Assembly: GCA_013816615.1 (NCBI GenBank)
Contig: JACDED010000043.1
Location: 1 to 32,477 of the forward strand
Length of the DNA stretch: 32,477 nt
Origin: Bacteroidota bacterium
GTDB lineage: Bacteria > Bacteroidota > Bacteroidia > B-17B0 > Aurantibacillaceae
Direction: 5' to 3'
Shown: positions 2,882-12,297 of the stretch, in pieces
How positions within the stretch are numbered: the first letter of the stretch is position 1
Layout: every line of letters starts with the position of its first letter
The notes under the pieces: model-generated
What the model was told of the DNA's origin: nothing
The model's input: only the letters and a program-made list of their open reading frames with translations
Databases searched by the model: none
Made by a program: the position numbers and the translations under genes

Positions 2882-4189
2882 ATGAGAACAAAAAAAGCTC
2901 TAATTCTATTATGCATGCTTTGCTCAACATTATTTACTGTAGCCCAAACAAACGTAAGTGGTGGTATTTACAGTAATACAACCTGGTTAAAAGCAAATAA
3001 TCCATATGTTGTAATCGGCAATGTGACTGTTTTTCCGGGAGTGAACTTAACACTACAACCAGGTGTGGTCATTAAATTTAATAATGGTACCAAACTGGAT
3101 ATAAGAGGTTCGCTTACTTCAAAAGGAACTCCAATAGATACTATTGTTTTCACATCCTCTTCTGCAAGCCCTACAATGAGTATTTGGGATGGAGTTTTAA
3201 TAAGTAATGATCTGGGTGGGAGCGCAGAATTTAAATATAGTGCAATTGAATATGCGGACAAAGCCATAACTAATGTTTGCTGTTGGAATGGTGGGCCACT
3301 TAACATTAAGCGTTCTGTTTTTAGAAATAACCAAATTGCTGTAGGAGGTTATGCAGGTTGGGTTGTAAACATCGACAGCTCAATGTTTACAAATAATAAG
3401 TATACAATAATCCAAGCGGATAAACGCATCAAAAACTCGACGTTTAAAAACAATTATGTGGGAATTGGTGATGAAACAGGTGTTGAAAGAATATCTGTAT
3501 TTAATAGTCTTTTTTGTAATAATACTAAAGCTGTTGATTTTATCCAGACTGATAGTTTGATGAATTGCACATTAGTTAACAATAAAGTTGCTTATAAATC
3601 ATTTATCAATGCTAGCGGAAGCAATGTAATTGAAAATAATGCCATTACTGATAATGATACAGGTATTGTTTCAGGTTCTAATTTAGAAAGCATTGTAAAT
3701 AATACAATTTGTAACACTTATAAGAATGTTGTTTATCTCTTTAACGCTAACAAAACCATGATCAATAATTGCTGGTGTACAACATTTACGTCTACCATTG
3801 CTAACAAAATTCATGATGGTTATGATAATGTTAATTATGGTCTTATTAATTTTATTCCACTTACAAGCTGCGATTCAACTGCAAAACCGGTAGTTGTTAA
3901 TTGTACTGATATAATTACGGGAATGAGTAACTATCCTACTCCACCAAAACCGATCTCATTAAAAATGTACCCAAATCCGTTTAATGATTATTTTGTTGTT
4001 ACTTCAAATACAACAGAAAATGATCTTGTAATTAAAATTTATAATATGCTTGGGCAGGAGGTTAAATTTATCGAAGGCTTTAACGGCCGTGCCGTTATAG
4101 ATGGTAAAGAAATGAGTGAAGGGGTCTATTTTATGCAATTAATACAAAAAAATATAGTAATTGATCAACTTAAATTAATTAAAAATTAA
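2882..4189 (+). CDS. T9SS-exported right-handed beta-helix protein
   Basis: A 435-aa secreted protein. Residues 1-22 are a Sec signal peptide (MRTKK, hydrophobic core, TVAQ). Residues about 40-330 show the loose Asn- and Ile/Val-rich repeat texture of pectate-lyase-like parallel beta-helices (for example NSTFKNNYVGI, NSLFCNNTKAV, NCTLVNNKVAY), with LDIRGSLTSKGTPIDTIVFTSS near 75-96. Residues about 361-435 form a T9SS type A sorting domain: MYPNPFNDYFVV, then IYNMLGQEV, then EGVYFMQL and a basic IKLIKN-like end. The protein is therefore expected on the cell surface or released. No catalytic residues can be assigned, so carbohydrate binding or cleavage is only a guess. It converges on the two-component system across a 31-bp gap with no hairpin. 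Confidence 0.85.
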   Translation: MRTKKALILLCMLCSTLFTVAQTNVSGGIYSNTTWLKANNPYVVIGNVTVFPGVNLTLQPGVVIKFNNGTKLDIRGSLTSKGTPIDTIVFTSSSASPTMSIWDGVLISNDLGGSAEFKYSAIEYADKAITNVCCWNGGPLNIKRSVFRNNQIAVGGYAGWVVNIDSSMFTNNKYTIIQADKRIKNSTFKNNYVGIGDETGVERISVFNSLFCNNTKAVDFIQTDSLMNCTLVNNKVAYKSFINASGSNVIENNAITDNDTGIVSGSNLESIVNNTICNTYKNVVYLFNANKTMINNCWCTTFTSTIANKIHDGYDNVNYGLINFIPLTSCDSTAKPVVVNCTDIITGMSNYPTPPKPISLKMYPNPFNDYFVVTSNTTENDLVIKIYNMLGQEVKFIEGFNGRAVIDGKEMSEGVYFMQLIQKNIVIDQLKLIKN

Positions 4190-4220: not shown

Positions 4221-4922
4221 CTATTTTACAGGCACATTAAAAATAAAACCTACTCCAAACACATTTTCAATATTAAGATCGGGATCTTCTTTTAAGTATT
4301 TACGGATCTTAGTAATGAAAACATCTAAACTTCTGCCGAAAAAATAATCGTTCTCACCCCAAAGATCTTTTAGCATCTCTTCACGCTTTATAACATGATT
4401 GCGGTGAAAAGATAAATAATTAAGGATATCACTTTCTTTCTCTGTAATGCGTTTTGTTTTGTTGTTTATGGTTAAGGATTGATTATTAAGATCGAAAATA
4501 TATTTCCCTATTGAAATGATCGCGGCTTTAGTTTCAGTTTTATTTTCGGGTATGCGGCGAATTAAGGCTTTAATTTTCCAAAGTAATTCTTCTTCATCAA
4601 ATGGTTTGGTAATATAATCATCAGCACCAAGGTCATAGCCTTTTAATTTATCTTCTTTTAAAGACCTGGCAGTAATAAAAATAACCGGAATTTTTTTATC
4701 CTTTACTTTCATTTCTTTTGCCAAAGTAAAGCCGTCTAATTTTGGCATCATCACATCCAACAAACACAGATCGAATTGGCCATTTTGAAATGCTTTTAAA
4801 GCCAGCTCACCATCTTTACAAAGCTTTACATCAAAACCTTCGGCTTCAAGATAATCTACCAGGAGCATTCCTAAATGCAGATCGTCTTCTGCCAATAATA
4901 TTTTAAGTTTATCCTTATGCAT
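4221..4922 (-). CDS. OmpR/PhoB-family response regulator (RprY-like)
   Basis: A 233-aa regulator. The receiver domain (about 5-120) has the acidic pocket Glu12/Asp13/Asp14, phospho-acceptor Asp56 (LLDVMMP), Thr84 and Lys106 (TKPF). A winged-helix DNA-binding domain fills about 135-233, with the typical ending FFGRSLDVFITKIRKYL and VFGVGFIF. Length and architecture fit the RprY group paired with RprX kinases in Bacteroidota. Its start overlaps the 3' end of the kinase gene by eight bases, so the two are co-transcribed and translationally coupled. The 11-bp tandem repeats upstream of the kinase gene (6232-6275) are a good candidate for its binding site. No target is otherwise known. Confidence 0.93.
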   Translation of the reverse strand: MHKDKLKILLAEDDLHLGMLLVDYLEAEGFDVKLCKDGELALKAFQNGQFDLCLLDVMMPKLDGFTLAKEMKVKDKKIPVIFITARSLKEDKLKGYDLGADDYITKPFDEEELLWKIKALIRRIPENKTETKAAIISIGKYIFDLNNQSLTINNKTKRITEKESDILNYLSFHRNHVIKREEMLKDLWGENDYFFGRSLDVFITKIRKYLKEDPDLNIENVFGVGFIFNVPVK

Positions 4923-6186
4923 TTGGCAATGTAATTGTAAATGTTGTACCTCTACCCGCTTCGCTTTTTAATTCAATAGTTCCGCTGTGTAATTCGATAA
5001 TTTTTTTTATGTAGGCCAAGCCAAGTCCAAAGCCTTTTACATTATGCATATTACCGGTTGGTACCCTGAAGAATTTATCAAACACTTTTTCCTGGTATTC
5101 TTTTTCAATACCAATGCCGTTATCAGAAAAAATAATAATTAAATTAGTGTTACTGTTTGTTGTTTGAATAGAAAGTTCCGGTTTTTCATTAGAATATTTA
5201 ACTGCATTATCTACCAGATTACAAAATGCATTTGTAAGGTGTGTTTTATCGCCAAACACTGTAAACTGTTGAGCATCTAATTTTAAATTCAGATCCCCTG
5301 CTTTATTTTCTATTTGTATACCAATACATTTTATGCAATCGTTAATAAGCTCATGCATATCCAGGTCTGTTTTCTGTAAAGGAATTTCGCCTCTTTCAAG
5401 TGCGGTCATACTTAATACCTGTTCTACCTGCAACCTTAACTTCTCATTCTCTTCAAGAATTATTGCTGAGTAATGTTTTATTTTATCTTCCTGTTTAATT
5501 ACAGGGTCCTTTATGATCATTTTACCGGCTAAAGCAATGTTTGTTAAAGGTGTTTTAAATTCATGGGTCATGTTATTTAAAAAATCGGTAGTATGCTCTG
5601 ATATTTGTTTCTCTTTCATTAATGATAATGTAGTACGCCAAAATAATACAAGTACAACAAGTATTAATATTACAGAAGTAATAAATAGTGTACCCATTTC
5701 GGCCATAATAAACTGCTCCTTATCGGGAATAATAAGTACAAGCTCTAAGCCACTTTTGCTTGCTAATTCTTGTAGACGTTTTCGGTAAATATTATTTGTC
5801 AAACTATTTTCGTTTTTAATACCGCCGGGTGCATCTTTTACAACTACAAAAGAATAATCAAGATGGAAATTATAAAAGCCCATAAAATGCTTAAACAACG
5901 AATCGATCTTATTAATGTCGGGTGCACTTATACAAACCTCTTTTGTTTTGCAGGCATTTATAACAATACAACCAAAGGATTGCTCGTAAGCGCCAATATT
6001 TTTAACTGTACCTGAATCTAAAGAAAGAGCTTCGGTTGTTTTTGAAAGTACAATGTTTGCTTTTTCAGTAAACAGTTCTTCCTTTATTTTAGCAGTTTCA
6101 AGGATCCAGTTGATCTGTATGATCAATACGATCACCAGGGCAATAGATGAAATAGCAATAAATAAATAGGTTCTGTTCAGCTTCAT
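4915..6186 (-). CDS. Membrane sensor histidine kinase (RprX-like)
   Basis: A 423-aa kinase. TM1 is about 7-28. A periplasmic sensor region covers about 29-165, with three Cys (72, 79, 85) that could form a disulfide. TM2 is about 167-183. The H-box is NMTHEFKTPL with phospho-acceptor His208, the N-box is NLVDNAVKYS (323-332), the G1 box is DNGIGI (355-360) and the G2 box is GFGLGLAY (385-392). All catalytic elements are present. No HAMP domain is evident between TM2 and the H-box. It is first in the operon with the response regulator. The 132-bp divergent gap to the TonB-domain gene holds the tandem-repeat operator. The signal sensed is unknown. Confidence 0.93.
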   Translation of the reverse strand: MKLNRTYLFIAISSIALVIVLIIQINWILETAKIKEELFTEKANIVLSKTTEALSLDSGTVKNIGAYEQSFGCIVINACKTKEVCISAPDINKIDSLFKHFMGFYNFHLDYSFVVVKDAPGGIKNENSLTNNIYRKRLQELASKSGLELVLIIPDKEQFIMAEMGTLFITSVILILVVLVLFWRTTLSLMKEKQISEHTTDFLNNMTHEFKTPLTNIALAGKMIIKDPVIKQEDKIKHYSAIILEENEKLRLQVEQVLSMTALERGEIPLQKTDLDMHELINDCIKCIGIQIENKAGDLNLKLDAQQFTVFGDKTHLTNAFCNLVDNAVKYSNEKPELSIQTTNSNTNLIIIFSDNGIGIEKEYQEKVFDKFFRVPTGNMHNVKGFGLGLAYIKKIIELHSGTIELKSEAGRGTTFTITLPNA

Positions 6187-6231
6187 TGGTGTATCTCAAA
6201 ATTAACTATTTTATACGTTATATACATGGCA

Positions 6232-6275
6232 TTAACAAGTCGTTAACAAGGTAATAACTAGTCAGTAACAAAATT
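6232..6275. promoter_or_regulatory. Four tandem 11-bp repeats, candidate response-regulator operator
   Basis: Reading plus strand, four consecutive 11-mers start at 6232, 6243, 6254 and 6265: TTAACAAGTCG, TTAACAAGGTA, ATAACTAGTCA, GTAACAAAATT. TAAC falls at the same place in each, as does an A two bases further on. G follows in three of four. Direct repeats in 11-bp phase are how OmpR/PhoB-family dimers bind DNA. The array sits between the kinase gene and the divergent 6319 gene, and ends about 16 bases before the TATATTTG box at 6292. Binding by the neighbouring regulator is inferred. Confidence 0.65.
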
Positions 6276-6291
6276 TATATATTAGCCTAGC

Positions 6292-6299
6292 TATATTTG
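6292..6299 (+). promoter_or_regulatory. -7 box TATATTTG of the 6319 gene
   Basis: A perfect TAnnTTTG, 19 bases before the ATG at 6319. No TTG or TTTG occurs 19-21 bases upstream. That position is the end of the tandem-repeat array, which fits an activator-dependent promoter. Confidence 0.5.
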
Positions 6300-6318
6300 T
6301 TTGTAAATTAAAAACGCT

Positions 6319-7137
6319 ATGAAACATATCACTCTTGCTTTATTTTTTTTATGCGTAAATACTTATGCACAAATAAAAAGCGGCTATGAATACAAGGGAA
6401 GAACTTCACCATCTATTAAACAGGAAAAACTAAGTGAGGCCAGATTTATAAATGATATTATGCCTGAGTTTTGCAGGAACTTTGGATTGCCGGGCGGCGA
6501 ATATTACAAGTTTCATCAGCTTATAAAATTAAGCAAGTCTACACTTGGAAATTATATGTATCCGAATGAATATTTTTACAGACAGGAAACTTATGAGAAG
6601 ATACTGGATTATGTTTCTGTAGAGATCTCATCTACCTGTAATGGCAAAATACTTTCAGCTACAAGTGCGAATAGCGTACTTAGTAAAGAGCAAAAAAATA
6701 TTTTAAATAGCATAGATGTAGGTGCAGATATTAATGTGAAAATTAATTTTAAATATAAATACGAAACGCCGGAGTATCCTGAGAAAGATGATAAAGTACA
6801 TGAAGGAAAATATAAAGTAACTGTTGTACCGGAAAAAGAAGCTGAATATCCGGGTGGACCTAAACAAATAACAAATTATATAAATGAAAATGTTATTAAT
6901 AAGATCCCGAAGAAAATGTTTTCTCCAAAAGTTAGTGATGCCATTGTAAAATTTACGATCGATGAAGAAGGCAAAGTCATTAACGCAAAAACCGCCAAAA
7001 CATCTTCTAATGTTATAATAGACAAATTACTTATTGATGCTATTAATAAAATGCCAAGTTGGAAACCTGCGGAAAACACAAAAGGAATAAAAATTAAACA
7101 GGAATACAGTATACCCCTGGGCAGTGATGGTTGCTAA
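6319..7137 (+). CDS. Exported protein with TonB C-terminal-like domain
   Basis: A 272-aa protein. Residues 1-17 are a cleavable signal peptide (MKHITLALFFLCVNTYAQ). Residues about 18-170 are a unique hydrophilic region. Residues about 172-270 resemble the TonB C-terminal domain: EAEYPGGPKQITNYINENV, then IVKFTIDEEGKVINAKTAKTSS, then LLIDAINKMPSWKPAENTKG and a closing IKQEYSIPL. Unlike an energy-transducing TonB it has no retained N-terminal membrane anchor or Pro-rich linker, so it is probably a soluble periplasmic or envelope protein using this fold for another job. Its upstream region carries the 11-bp repeats. The gap to the next start is 34 bp, so co-transcription is plausible. Confidence 0.75.
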   Translation: MKHITLALFFLCVNTYAQIKSGYEYKGRTSPSIKQEKLSEARFINDIMPEFCRNFGLPGGEYYKFHQLIKLSKSTLGNYMYPNEYFYRQETYEKILDYVSVEISSTCNGKILSATSANSVLSKEQKNILNSIDVGADINVKINFKYKYETPEYPEKDDKVHEGKYKVTVVPEKEAEYPGGPKQITNYINENVINKIPKKMFSPKVSDAIVKFTIDEEGKVINAKTAKTSSNVIIDKLLIDAINKMPSWKPAENTKGIKIKQEYSIPLGSDGC

Positions 7138-7171: not shown

Positions 7172-7621
7172 ATGAAACTAAACAAATTAATTTTAATAGC
7201 ACTTATAGCTGTAAGTATGGTAGAATGTAAATCTAAAAAAAGTGTAGCTACAACTGCACCTACCCCGGTTACAAGTAACACTCCAACTACACCAACTAAT
7301 ACTACAACACCAACCACAGGCTTTTCTACGTTTTCTACCCCCAAATCTACAGAAGGTGTGCCTGCACCCGAGGATAAGGAACTTGCGGCAATACAAGCGC
7401 AATACAGCGATGTGACATTAGAAAAATTACAAATAGGTCATATGCTTTATACGGTTGGCGCCTGTATCAATTGTCACGGAGCAAAAAATATTTATAAACG
7501 TGAAACAAGCCAGTGGAAAGGCATTATTGATAACATGGCTGAAATGGCAAAATTAAACGAAGCGCAAAAAGATGCGGTTTTTAAATATGTACTTTCAGTA
7601 AAAGTAACACAACCAAAATAG
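7172..7621 (+). CDS. c-type cytochrome-like lipoprotein with one heme site
   Basis: From Met at 7172 the protein is 149 aa. An in-frame ATG at 7124 would overlap the upstream gene and add a basic leader before the signal peptide, so I reject it. The signal peptide ends at Cys19 (AVSMVECKSKK), with an unusual Glu just before the Cys. Residues about 24-60 are a Thr/Pro linker. The C-terminal part has one CxxCH heme-binding site, Cys98-Cys101-His102 (GACINCHGAKN), and Met122/Met125 in NMAEMAKL are candidate axial ligands. A lone heme domain tethered by a flexible linker suggests periplasmic electron transfer or redox sensing. It lies between the TonB-domain gene and another lipoprotein. Confidence 0.8.
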   Translation: MKLNKLILIALIAVSMVECKSKKSVATTAPTPVTSNTPTTPTNTTTPTTGFSTFSTPKSTEGVPAPEDKELAAIQAQYSDVTLEKLQIGHMLYTVGACINCHGAKNIYKRETSQWKGIIDNMAEMAKLNEAQKDAVFKYVLSVKVTQPK

Positions 7622-7644: not shown

Positions 7645-8346
7645 ATGAAAACATATATTTTAATTTTATCGTTAGTTAGTATTTTATTTTTGAGCTGCGA
7701 TCCGGAAGAAATGAAAGAAGAAGTAATTCGTCCCGCTATTATTTTGAATGGAAATAAAATGGATACAGCATACCTTTATACAACCTATATAGATCCCGGT
7801 GCGAAATTTTTTGAAGACAACAAGAATGGCTGGATAAACGATCGTGATTTTATTCCCGTTACAGATATTAGTGGTACAGTTAAAACCAATCTTCCGGGCA
7901 CATGTTATTTAAACTATAACGCAAAGGATTCAAGCGGCAAGCCTTTGGCCACTGTAACAAGAACCGTTCATGTGGTAGAGAACAGAACTGCTTTTTTAAA
8001 TGGAAATTATGATGTTACCTGCACATGCACATCTGTTGCCGGGCCGATTTCTACAACAACATCTCAAAATTATACAGCCTCTGTGTGGCCAAATCCGGAC
8101 AAAGATCATTTTGACCTTATACCTTTGAATATTGGCGTTCAGAGAGTAGCAACAAATGCATCTTTAAAAGGTAACTTTATAAATATTGGGTATTGGAGCC
8201 CGGATTATGATCAAAGCAGTTCTTCATCCGGTACTTTATCTGCTACAAAAAACACCTTTACTATTGATTCTAAATTCCATAGGTTTACACCCCGTGTAAC
8301 TTATACCTGCCGAAATGTTTATACAAAACAATTGGTTTTGAATTAA
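7645..8346 (+). CDS. DUF5011-like domain lipoprotein
   Basis: A 233-aa lipoprotein with signal peptide and lipobox LFLSC (Cys18) followed by Asp-Pro-Glu-Glu. Residues about 30-112 match the Ig-like DUF5011 pattern: a Leu-Asn-Gly start, YIDPGAKFFED, VKTNLPGTCYLNYNAKDSSG and VTRTVHVVE. This type of domain is common in surface proteins of Bacteroidota. Residues about 115-233 are a beta-rich part with a CTCTS motif, a Ser-rich loop (QSSSSSGTL) and a late Cys. Asp after the +1 Cys may influence sorting of the lipoprotein. It follows the cytochrome gene by 23 bp, so it is probably in the same transcript. Ligand unknown. Confidence 0.75.
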   Translation: MKTYILILSLVSILFLSCDPEEMKEEVIRPAIILNGNKMDTAYLYTTYIDPGAKFFEDNKNGWINDRDFIPVTDISGTVKTNLPGTCYLNYNAKDSSGKPLATVTRTVHVVENRTAFLNGNYDVTCTCTSVAGPISTTTSQNYTASVWPNPDKDHFDLIPLNIGVQRVATNASLKGNFINIGYWSPDYDQSSSSSGTLSATKNTFTIDSKFHRFTPRVTYTCRNVYTKQLVLN

Positions 8347-8454: not shown

Positions 8455-9015
8455 ATGAAAAATAAATGGGCGATAGATGAATTGCAGGATGTTTGGCAAT
8501 TAGCAACTAAATTACATGATGGACAAAAATATGGTGGACCTAAAGATGGTGAACAGATAGAATACATTAATCACATTGGAAGTGTAACATTTGAAGTTAT
8601 TAATGCGATAAATAATAGTGAAGATATGAATGCTGGCCTTGCCATTAAATGTGCTGTGTTGCACGATACTTTAGAAGACACTAAATTTTCTTATGAAAAA
8701 GCAAAAGAACTGTTTGGAAAAGAAGTGGCAGATGGTACTTTAGCATTAACCAAAAGCAATACAATTGAAAGTAGTAATGATAAAATGCTTGACAGCTTAA
8801 AAAGGATAAAACAACAACCTAAAGAAATATGGGCGGTAAAAATGGCCGACAGGATCTGTAATTTATATGAACCGCCTTTTTATTGGAAGAATGAGAAGAA
8901 ACTGAAATATATTGAAGAAGCGAAGCTGATATTAGCTGAGTTAAAAGATGGAAATAACTATTTAGCCGAAAGACTTGAAAGCAAAACACAAGCATATCAT
9001 CGTTTTTTAGATTAA
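8455..9015 (+). CDS. HD-domain small alarmone (ppGpp) hydrolase-like protein
   Basis: A 186-aa soluble protein with the HD fold of RelA/SpoT hydrolase domains and MESH1-type small alarmone hydrolases. Metal-ligand motifs are in order: His40 (YINH), His70-Asp71 in AVLHDTLEDT (68-76) and Asp132 in KMADRICNL (129-137), with ALTK at about 97-100. There is no synthetase, TGS or ACT domain, so it should only hydrolyse (p)ppGpp or a similar nucleotide. It is alone, with its own promoter-like box. A stub repeating its first 11 codons lies at 11506. The substrate is inferred from the family. Related HD proteins act on other nucleotides. Confidence 0.85.
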   Translation: MKNKWAIDELQDVWQLATKLHDGQKYGGPKDGEQIEYINHIGSVTFEVINAINNSEDMNAGLAIKCAVLHDTLEDTKFSYEKAKELFGKEVADGTLALTKSNTIESSNDKMLDSLKRIKQQPKEIWAVKMADRICNLYEPPFYWKNEKKLKYIEEAKLILAELKDGNNYLAERLESKTQAYHRFLD

Positions 9016-10209: not shown

Positions 10210-11496
10210 ATGAGAAAAATATTACTGTCTGCCATCGTCTTATTATCCTTGTCCTTAAAAGCACAAACTCCTTACACAAGTTATTTTACCGGCGATACTT
10301 CCAATGTTATAAAAACCACACAATACCGTTTGTGCATGATGGGTGGCGCTAGTGAAGATGATGAGGCTATGAAATGGTTCCTGAACGGAAGTGGTGGTGG
10401 AGATATAGTTGTAATAAGAGCTACAGGTTCTAATGGTTATAATACTTATTTATATTCATCGTTAGGCATTCCTGTTAACTCAGTAGAAACATTAGTTATA
10501 CCAAGCATTGCAGCTGCCAATCATCCTTACGTAAGAAGAAGGTTGCGCGAAGCCGAAGCAATTTGGATAGCAGGCGGTAATCAATTTGATTACGTTAGTT
10601 ATTGGAACAATACTTCAGTTGATACCGCCATAAATTATCTGATCAATACAAAAAAAACACCCATTGGCGGAACAAGCGCCGGTATGGCTATACAGGGCCA
10701 GGCGTATTTTAGCGCAGCGGCAGGTTCGGTAAGTTCGCCTGTCGCTTTATCAGATCCATATGGCAGCTTGCTAACAATTGGAAATAACGATCTTTTACAT
10801 AACAAAATTTTAAAACGTGTAATTACCGATACGCATTACGATAACCCGGACAGGCGCGGAAGGCACAGTGCTTTTGTGGCACGCCTTTTCCAGGATAGCT
10901 CTGTAGCCTTTTACGGCATTGCCTGCGATGAATATACTGCAGTTTGTATTGATAGCACCGGCATTGCAAAAGTGTACGGCGGTTTTCCGACGTATGACGA
11001 TAACGCATATTTTATTCAGCCTAATTGTATTTTACCAAACGGACCGGAGACTTGCGCCGCTGCGCAATCATTAACATGGAACCGATCAGGTCAGGCATTA
11101 AAAGTTTACGCCATAAAAGGCACTTCGGTTGGCGCCGGAAGTTTTGACCTAAACAACTGGCAAAACCCAAACGCCAGCGGTGGCAACTGGCAAAACTGGT
11201 TCGTAGTTAACGGAACATTTTCTACAACAACAGGCGCAACACCAATAGCCTGCACAACCACCAATATAAAAAATAATACGCAGGATGAAATAAACCTCTA
11301 CCCTAACCCAACTCAAAGCATTTTAAATTTTGACAGAACAGTAGAAAAGATCAGTATAAAAGATATAACCGGAAAAATACGGGCAACATTTTTTAATGCA
11401 GAAAAAATAAACATTGAGAATTTAGTGCCTGGAATTTATTTTATTGAATTAAGATCAAAAAATTATATATGTATTAAAAAATTTGTAAAGGAATAA
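10210..11496 (+). CDS. T9SS-exported cyanophycinase-like peptidase (family S51)
   Basis: A 428-aa secreted enzyme. Residues 1-19 are a signal peptide (MRKILLSAIVLLSLSLKAQ). The S51/cyanophycinase fold covers about 38-330: MMGGASEDDEAM (43-54), IWIAGGNQFDYV (118-129), the nucleophile elbow GGTSAGMAI with Ser156, THYDNPDRRGRHSAF with His209, and ACDEYTAV with Glu241, which fits a Ser-His-Glu triad. Residues about 360-428 are a T9SS type A sorting domain (LYPNPTQSIL, ISIKDITGKI, VPGIYFIELRS). The family cleaves beta-aspartyl or related isopeptide bonds. Intracellular members degrade cyanophycin, but this one acts outside the cell, so its substrate may be an environmental polymer or peptide. No cyanophycin synthetase is in the window. 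Confidence 0.88.
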   Translation: MRKILLSAIVLLSLSLKAQTPYTSYFTGDTSNVIKTTQYRLCMMGGASEDDEAMKWFLNGSGGGDIVVIRATGSNGYNTYLYSSLGIPVNSVETLVIPSIAAANHPYVRRRLREAEAIWIAGGNQFDYVSYWNNTSVDTAINYLINTKKTPIGGTSAGMAIQGQAYFSAAAGSVSSPVALSDPYGSLLTIGNNDLLHNKILKRVITDTHYDNPDRRGRHSAFVARLFQDSSVAFYGIACDEYTAVCIDSTGIAKVYGGFPTYDDNAYFIQPNCILPNGPETCAAAQSLTWNRSGQALKVYAIKGTSVGAGSFDLNNWQNPNASGGNWQNWFVVNGTFSTTTGATPIACTTTNIKNNTQDEINLYPNPTQSILNFDRTVEKISIKDITGKIRATFFNAEKINIENLVPGIYFIELRSKNYICIKKFVKE

Positions 11497-11811: not shown

Positions 11812-12297
11812 TTAAGCTTCAGCAGTTTTAGCTGAATCGTCTTTTTTAGCTTTTGTAGAATCTTTTTTAGCTCCTTTGCTACGACGAGTAGTTTTCTTAG
11901 CTGTACCTTCAGCAGCAGATTTACTGTTGTTGTAGATGTCGTTAAAATCAACTAATTCGATCATTGCCATTTCAGCAGCATCACCTTGACGGTTACCGGT
12001 TTTGATGATACGTGTGTATCCACCATTACGGTTTGCAACTTTAGAAGCAACTTCTTTGAATAATTCGCTTACAGTTTCTTTTCTTTTTAAGTAAGAGAAA
12101 GCAACACGACGGCTGTGCGTTGTATCATCTTTACTTTTTGTAATAAGCGGCTCAACATAAACGCGTAAAGCTTTAGCTTTAGCTAATGTTGTAAAAATAC
12201 GCTTGTTATCAATCAACGCGCAAGCTAAGTTCATTAACAAAGCATGACGGTGAGCGGTTTTTCTACCTAAATTATTTATTTTATCTCCGTGTCTCAT
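11812..12297 (-). CDS. rplQ: 50S ribosomal protein L17
   Basis: A 161-aa protein. The N-terminal L17 core starts [17 protein letters not shown] and includes [16 protein letters not shown] and [21 protein letters not shown]. From about residue 120 there is a low-complexity tail rich in Lys, Ala and Ser ([12 protein letters not shown] and similar), about 40 residues longer than the bare core and typical of Bacteroidota L17. L17 sits near the peptide exit tunnel. It is the last gene of the ribosomal block, 76 bp after rpoA and just before the terminator. The long spacer holds nested repeats (12335-12379). Confidence 0.97.

Follow-up and report, generated by a model that had tools for sequence, protein, structure and literature searches.

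A TAAC repeat array as a probable operator between an RprY-like two-component operon and a divergent operon for exported-looking proteins in Bacteroidia

The closest known layouts to the locus described here are those of cpxP-cpxRA and zraP-zraSR, in which a two-component operon shares its upstream region with a divergently oriented gene whose product is an exported partner. In the cpx locus, the CpxR sites in this shared region are direct repeats. The divergent partner gene, cpxP, is strongly regulated by the CpxRA system (PMC6737893), and genomic SELEX with ZraR showed binding mainly to the spacer between its own operon and the divergent gene for a metal-binding periplasmic protein (PMC8249747). 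More generally, regulators of the OmpR/PhoB type bind 7 + 4-bp direct repeats head to tail, and four repeats in a row are bound more tightly than two (PMC4832192). A described case of defined spacing is that of the Salmonella PhoP boxes, hexamer direct repeats 11 bp apart that lie 12, 23 or 33 nt from the −10 element in one orientation and 27, 37 or 48 nt in the other, with activation at integral turns in one orientation and at half-integral turns in the other (PMC3335776). The portions of the open-access literature covered here (including PMC3646045 and PMC6032018) describe neither an array of the present kind nor a binding motif for RprY-like regulators.

The locus considered here lies in a 32,477-nt stretch of Bacteroidota DNA, the whole of which we call the window, and its features are collected in Table 1. 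Between a leftward kinase–regulator operon and a rightward row of genes starting at 6319, the intergenic region 6187–6318 carries TAAC on the plus strand at 6233, 6244, 6255 and 6266. An earlier note, made from the sequence alone, had pointed out these four TAACs 11 bp apart, and both their positions and a shuffle control confirm them: a search for the exact four-fold 11-bp pattern gives a single match in the window, and 100 dinucleotide shuffles gave none. It might be argued that the repeats are a chance arrangement or a functionless inherited stretch, since TAAC is a frequent word and the surrounding DNA is rich in A and T. However, the shuffle result, the conservation of the repeats beside a diverged spacer, and the same spacing at promoters distant from the kinase and in paralogous systems (see below) all argue against this explanation, to which we give almost no credence. 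The array has the form of an OmpR/PhoB-type operator, with direct repeats of about 7 bp and 4-bp spacers (11-bp period), and the adjoining regulator has the matching receiver and Trans_reg_C domains.

By the tests made, the locus is a member of neither of the two closest layouts. Like cpxP-cpxRA, it has a gene for an exported partner that diverges from a two-component operon, export being judged by eye from N-termini. Unlike cpxP-cpxRA, the partners scanned here gave no CpxP/Spy family Pfam match, partner types vary between species, and the four-unit array has fixed gaps to two TAnnTTTG boxes, a feature not described for cpxP-cpxRA. The single significant site in the window's genome and the Cys-rich partners in some relatives resemble the zraP-zraSR layout, but ZraR is of the NtrC type (PMC8249747), whereas the regulator here is of the OmpR/PhoB type.

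Table 1. Coordinates and properties of the features of the locus (window positions), with the site position at nine inspected loci of the TTAACC type.
Feature	Position	Strand	Remarks
Response regulator	4221..4922	-	Receiver and Trans_reg_C (OmpR/PhoB type); RprY-like, below curated cut-off
Sensor histidine kinase	4915..6186	-	HisKA, HATPase_c; membrane sensor region without Pfam match
-7 box TAATTTTG, kinase promoter	6197..6204	-	28 bp from the TAAC of R1; start assigned from box
R1, TTAACAAGTCG	6232..6242	+	Kinase-proximal repeat; heptamer 0.975 identical, 22 loci
R2, TTAACAAGGTA	6243..6253	+	Heptamer 0.975 identical, 22 loci
R3, ATAACTAGTCA	6254..6264	+	Heptamer 0.894 identical, 22 loci
R4, GTAACAAAATT	6265..6275	+	Repeat closest to rightward promoter; heptamer 0.862 identical, 22 loci
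-7 box TATATTTG, rightward promoter	6292..6299	+	22 bp past the TAAC of R4; start assigned from box
TonB_C-domain protein, exported-looking	6319..7137	+	26.1 bits, cut-off 24.6; export by eye, from N-terminus
Lipoprotein-like protein, one CxxCH motif	7172..7621	+	ORF listed from 7124; lipoprotein-like start at 7172
Lipoprotein-like protein, Ig-like domain (PF16403)	7645..8346	+	35.2 bits, cut-off 27
TTAACC-type loci L051, L053, L054, L057, L065, L070, L077, L079, L080	1501-1545 in each		

Elsewhere in the window, an HD-domain protein downstream of the rightward genes (8455–9015) gives a weak RelA/SpoT-like match (38.3 bits, cut-off 499.2). Two proteins with type IX secretion C-terminal sorting domains flank the region (2882–4189 and 10210–11496), the second of which also matches peptidase S51, and positions 11812–32438 hold a long series of minus-strand ORFs, most of them short.

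Because the same layout recurs in related bacteria, the array is most likely the regulator's site, and the regulator probably binds it to control its own genes and their neighbours. We assign a probability of roughly 0.75 to the reading that the array is the operator of the adjoining RprY-like regulator and that it activates both the exported-protein operon and the kinase–regulator operon. We infer that the regulator binds, what part phosphorylation plays, and whether each promoter is activated or repressed. The earlier proposal of an OmpR/PhoB-type operator between the two-component operon and its divergent neighbour is supported by the comparison. The N-terminal 195 residues of the kinase are present in 25 of 87 family genomes (an order-level search gave the same 87 as the family search), and the identical 25 genomes carry the array at E ≤ 1e-6. 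The aligned kinases are 57–87% identical to that of the window, and the array occupies a near-constant place upstream of the orthologous kinases; the repeats are thus present at just those orthologous gene pairs where, according to the earlier note, their absence would have told against the proposal.

The spacing is also conserved. Across 25 loci, a tally that leaves aside one locus with two repeats (L041), the rightward box lies 22 bp past the TAAC of R4 in 21 and 21 bp past it in 2, with the exact box absent in 2. On the other side, the gap from the TAAC of R1 to the kinase box is 28 bp in 18 loci, 29 in 2 and 37 in 1, the last being a locus with an extra repeat, and the exact box is absent in 4. 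Column identity in an alignment of 22 loci, from which L013 (where R4 reads CAAC), L041, and L025 and L043 (gap 21) were omitted, is 0.86–0.975 in the repeats and 0.97 in the fixed letters of the rightward box, compared with 0.383 in the 20 bp between R4 and that box; a further alignment, A3, omits L025 and L029. The length of this spacer is kept while its sequence drifts, which looks like a spacing constraint, and on this comparison the array is a strong phylogenetic footprint.

Both −7 boxes are of the Bacteroidota type, with the consensus TAnnTTTG. When the box is placed at −12 to −5 (PMC9723704), the array takes up about −72 to −29 relative to the rightward promoter, whereas relative to the kinase promoter it is upstream of about −40. 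The earlier note had described an activator-dependent layout at the 6319 promoter, with a perfect −7 box and no TTG at the −33 spacing. Both of these features are seen, and the position of the array is indeed of the activator type, but the note named only one promoter, whereas the array faces two; the kinase-side box TAATTTTG was absent from it. As a sign that an activator is needed, however, the missing TTG is uninformative, because background promoters of the family also show little −33 signal (8 of 79 at 19–20 bp, with 4 for a GTT control). At the orthologous loci, none of 22 rightward promoters and two of 22 kinase promoters had TTG at 17–20 bp. An inverted repeat noticed by eye in the kinase promoter spacer (for example, in L007 and L040) was inconsistent across rows and was discarded.

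These distances suggest how the array could work. The active regulator would bind head to tail with one protomer on each 11-bp unit, probably forming two dimers, one on R1–R2 and one on R3–R4. With the TAAC of R4 at about −38 to −35 of the rightward promoter, R3–R4 could stand in for the missing −33 contact and so activate the exported-protein operon; with the TAAC of R1 at about −44 to −41 of the kinase promoter, R1–R2 could likewise activate the kinase–regulator operon, which would amount to positive self-control. Since both −7 boxes are left uncovered by the array, activation is favoured over blocking, and activation of both operons would be the simplest reading. With a promoter at a fixed distance on either side of the array, the case for self-control of the kinase operon is about as good as that for control of the 6319 operon. 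The opposite-direction gaps of 22 and 28 fit those of the PhoP boxes roughly, although the measuring points differ; unlike the PhoP boxes, which have another motif and another sigma factor, a single four-unit array here stands between two divergent promoters.

The inequality of the two gaps, 22 versus 28, could instead reflect opposite signs of control, with the regulator activating the exported-protein operon via R3–R4 and repressing its own operon via R1–R2. Such a scheme would agree with the orthologous RprY of Porphyromonas gingivalis, which binds its own promoter by EMSA and is a proposed repressor (PMC3646045). Yet the array lies upstream of the kinase −7 box at a fixed distance, not over the box, and in one genome (G017) the CxxCH gene, which is usually on the R4 side, stands on the kinase side and precedes the kinase, an odd arrangement if the two sides were oppositely controlled. 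We therefore regard opposite signs as unlikely and retain activation of both operons as the preferred reading. Three further variants bear on how the array may be divided. In L041, where no divergent gene is seen, only R1–R2 are kept, and their distance to the kinase box is 29 bp; L018 has gained a fifth repeat on the kinase side, 10 bp from R1 and 27 bp from the kinase box, and R4 is still at 22; and in L016 (genome G024), a small gene precedes the kinase and the array lies upstream of that small gene, with the rightward box still at 22. Together with G017, these loci suggest that R1–R2 serve the kinase promoter and R3–R4 the rightward promoter, and that both promoters are used to the same end.

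How closely the system is related to RprXY can be judged from the regulator. Its best NCBIfam match is RprY (NF051850), and the self-binding of the P. gingivalis protein is a further likeness, so the earlier description of an RprXY-like system holds as far as an RprY-like regulator is concerned. The score, however, is only 270.2 bits against a cut-off of 370, and a closer RprY is encoded elsewhere in the same genome (L286, contig C32; 334.5 bits, also below 370), which means that among the regulators scored the window's regulator is not the best RprY match of its genome. No array was found in the 363 bp upstream of the kinase of this closer RprY. In genomes scoring above the RprY cut-off, four loci fetched (of five genomes) had no TAAC-N7-TAAC upstream of the kinase. 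Taken together, the score below the cut-off, the closer RprY elsewhere and the RprY loci without an array lead us to reject RprXY identity. The window-type regulators share the motif GRS-DVFI in the DNA-binding domain, presumably the recognition helix, with the regulators of a more distant kinase type (27–35% identical) described below.

The divergent genes are more variable than the array. Among 27 surveyed loci, some of them cut by contig ends, the commonest neighbour is the CxxCH lipoprotein (cluster c1), present at 14 and with its CxxCH kept in 14 of 14; at G012 and G017 it is not in the divergent direction. The TonB_C protein is a neighbour at 9 of the 27, the Ig-like lipoprotein (cluster c4) is found at 9, lying beyond the regulator at G012 and G030, and a small lipoprotein is found at 6. 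Judged by this survey, the divergent genes are exchangeable among relatives. The earlier link between the regulator and envelope proteins is sustained with respect to exported proteins in general but not to particular types, which differ between relatives, and the suggestion of a redox or stress regulon is unsupported in the analysis.

Small exported-looking proteins with 12–17% Cys take the partner's place in five f21 genomes, one f11 genome and G024, and they pair with kinase loops of 4–5 Cys; other loops contain 1–3 Cys, with one exception. Of 37 kinases, 8 have a loop with at least 4 Cys, and for 7 of these 8 the partner has at least 12% Cys; none of the other 28 partners exceeds 9.8% Cys (35 of the 37 partners were read). 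The backbone of the kinase tree is unresolved and the Cys-loop label needs just 3 changes on it, so this co-variation serves as a lead and not as a test. The matching Cys content is a hint that the partner may act on the kinase via the periplasmic domain.

We also asked how far the array reaches beyond this locus. A sequence-only model of the array plus the −7 box reaches significance at one site of the window's 4.68-Mb genome (E 2e-15, against 0.25 for the runner-up), and a wide regulon in this genome is unsupported given that single site; four other TTAACA-N5-TTAACA matches (L002–L005) are absent from the model's 18 hits at E ≤ 10. A class scan with the same model at E ≤ 0.001 hit 26 of 395 genomes in 14 families, and in 8 of these families (f1, f2, f11, f13, f19, f21, f23 and f61) four repeats are followed by an exact box at 21–22 bp. 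A kinase 55–68% identical to the window's adjoins the array in eight families (f1, f3, f11, f13, f19, f21, f23 and f61), and more distant kinases (30–39%) adjoin it in f2 and f38. Of 15 further kinase-linked loci at class level, 14 have the box at 22 bp, a count that excludes L209 and L211 (which duplicate family loci), hits without a kinase in the fetched DNA, and five weak hits whose neighbouring kinases matched over the kinase domain only. These five (L219, L220, L222, L223 and L224) are off the four-repeat register, and only L224 has the box at 22. Because the model contains the −7 box, agreement in spacing among its hits is partly built in; a gap-pattern search over 13–43 bp and a nine-locus paralogue set are independent of the model.

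In the gap-pattern search, TAACAAGTCNNTAAC followed after 13 to 43 bases by TAnnTTTG gave 10 matches in 8 of the 87 family genomes and 0 in the reversed control. The gap is 22 in five and 33 in five, with none elsewhere in the range; the four-repeat kinase-linked arrays mostly fall outside this pattern because their gap would be 44. Two of the ten matches are kinase-linked (G023:C75 and G072:C517), one (G010:C42) adjoins a 43% kinase paralogue, and the remaining seven are distant from the kinase promoter. A search with a looser pattern returned 139 matches versus 57 in its reversed control, which indicates that lone two-repeat sites are often chance. In one genome, G014, contigs C1, C10, C18, C20 and C23 contain many overlapping TAACATAACTG-like short tandem repeats, which yield 14 of its 15 four-TAAC matches and are unrelated to the kinase locus.

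Some sites are distal to the kinase. At model E < 1e-3 there are nine in the family, spread over 7 of the 25 kinase-bearing genomes and 2 of the 62 that lack the kinase (p 0.0019), and two more 22-bp gap-pattern sites (G023:C112 and G046:C22) bring the number to eleven. At six of them, the first gene encodes a Reg_prop beta-propeller protein (G023 twice, G046, G072, G075 and G077); the sites before the Reg_prop genes of G077 and G075 are at 165–209 of L118 and about 4146–4200 of L244. Others precede an operon with relatives of the CxxCH lipoprotein and the TonB_C protein (G001), an operon with a CxxCH lipoprotein relative as its second gene (G046:C16), an operon with a TonB_C protein relative (G041:C25), a lipoprotein-like gene (G031) and a gene cut by the contig end (G008). 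The gap is 22 at G075 and at G072:C191, the G072 box being one letter off. The recurrence of Reg_prop is suggestive, but it is no measured enrichment because such proteins are not rare in these genomes (six genomes have 13 to 60 repeat matches each, many of them in frames of about 700–1200 residues).

Three further kinase types follow the rule of repeats, 22 bp and TAnnTTTG. At nine loci with kinases 27–35% identical to the window's (L239, L247, L250 and six alike), two TTAACA repeats are followed by a degenerate third and by a TAAC 32 bp from the first, forming a four-TAAC operator with its last repeat shifted by one base; the gap to the box is 22 in 8 and 21 in 1, and the divergent protein is DUF1573 in the two scanned. 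In the second type, 24 sites with TTAACC-type repeats, hand-picked from the 139 looser-pattern matches for a close-by kinase match, are all upstream of and divergent from the kinase, with a gap of 22 in 23 and 21 in 1, although the pattern admitted gaps of 21–23 only. The nine loci of this type that were inspected (Table 1) have a divergent exported-looking protein of 176–331 residues. Finally, three repeats with a gap of 22 accompany one RprY-like pair in G274.

That TTAAC repeats also adjoin other kinases raises the question of whether a different DNA-binding protein occupies the array and co-regulates both operons, with the adjoining regulator acting elsewhere. Binding by the adjoining regulator is, after all, what we infer, and G075 and G077 have a distal site but lack an orthologue of the kinase N-terminus, so that another regulator may also use the sequence. 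Nevertheless, the arrays and the kinase co-occur in the same 25 of 87 genomes, the other kinase types carry their own variant repeats at the same place, and head-to-tail 11-bp repeats are the usual site of OmpR/PhoB regulators (PMC4832192). A different protein in place of the adjoining regulator consequently seems to us highly improbable, and we keep to the adjoining regulator as the probable ligand of the array.

A broader idea, which we offer tentatively and consider possible though doubtful, is that the kinase and the divergent exported protein form a swappable, co-evolving pair. The partner would be both the main output and a part of the sensor, feeding back to the periplasmic loop, as is possible for CpxP or ZraP, and its type would change with the loop, Cys-rich with Cys-rich. 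A single cis-rule (TTAAC repeats at 11 bp, a 22-bp gap and TAnnTTTG) would wire many such pairs across Bacteroidia.

In summary, the spacing rule holds across the class and in paralogous systems, which makes the array notable. If the rule holds, the target promoters of several kinase systems would become readable from sequence, by looking for TTAAC repeats at 11 bp with the last TAAC 22 bp before TAnnTTTG. It would also supply a concrete activator geometry for a phylum with a weak −33 element, and would pair sensors with defined, testable exported partners.
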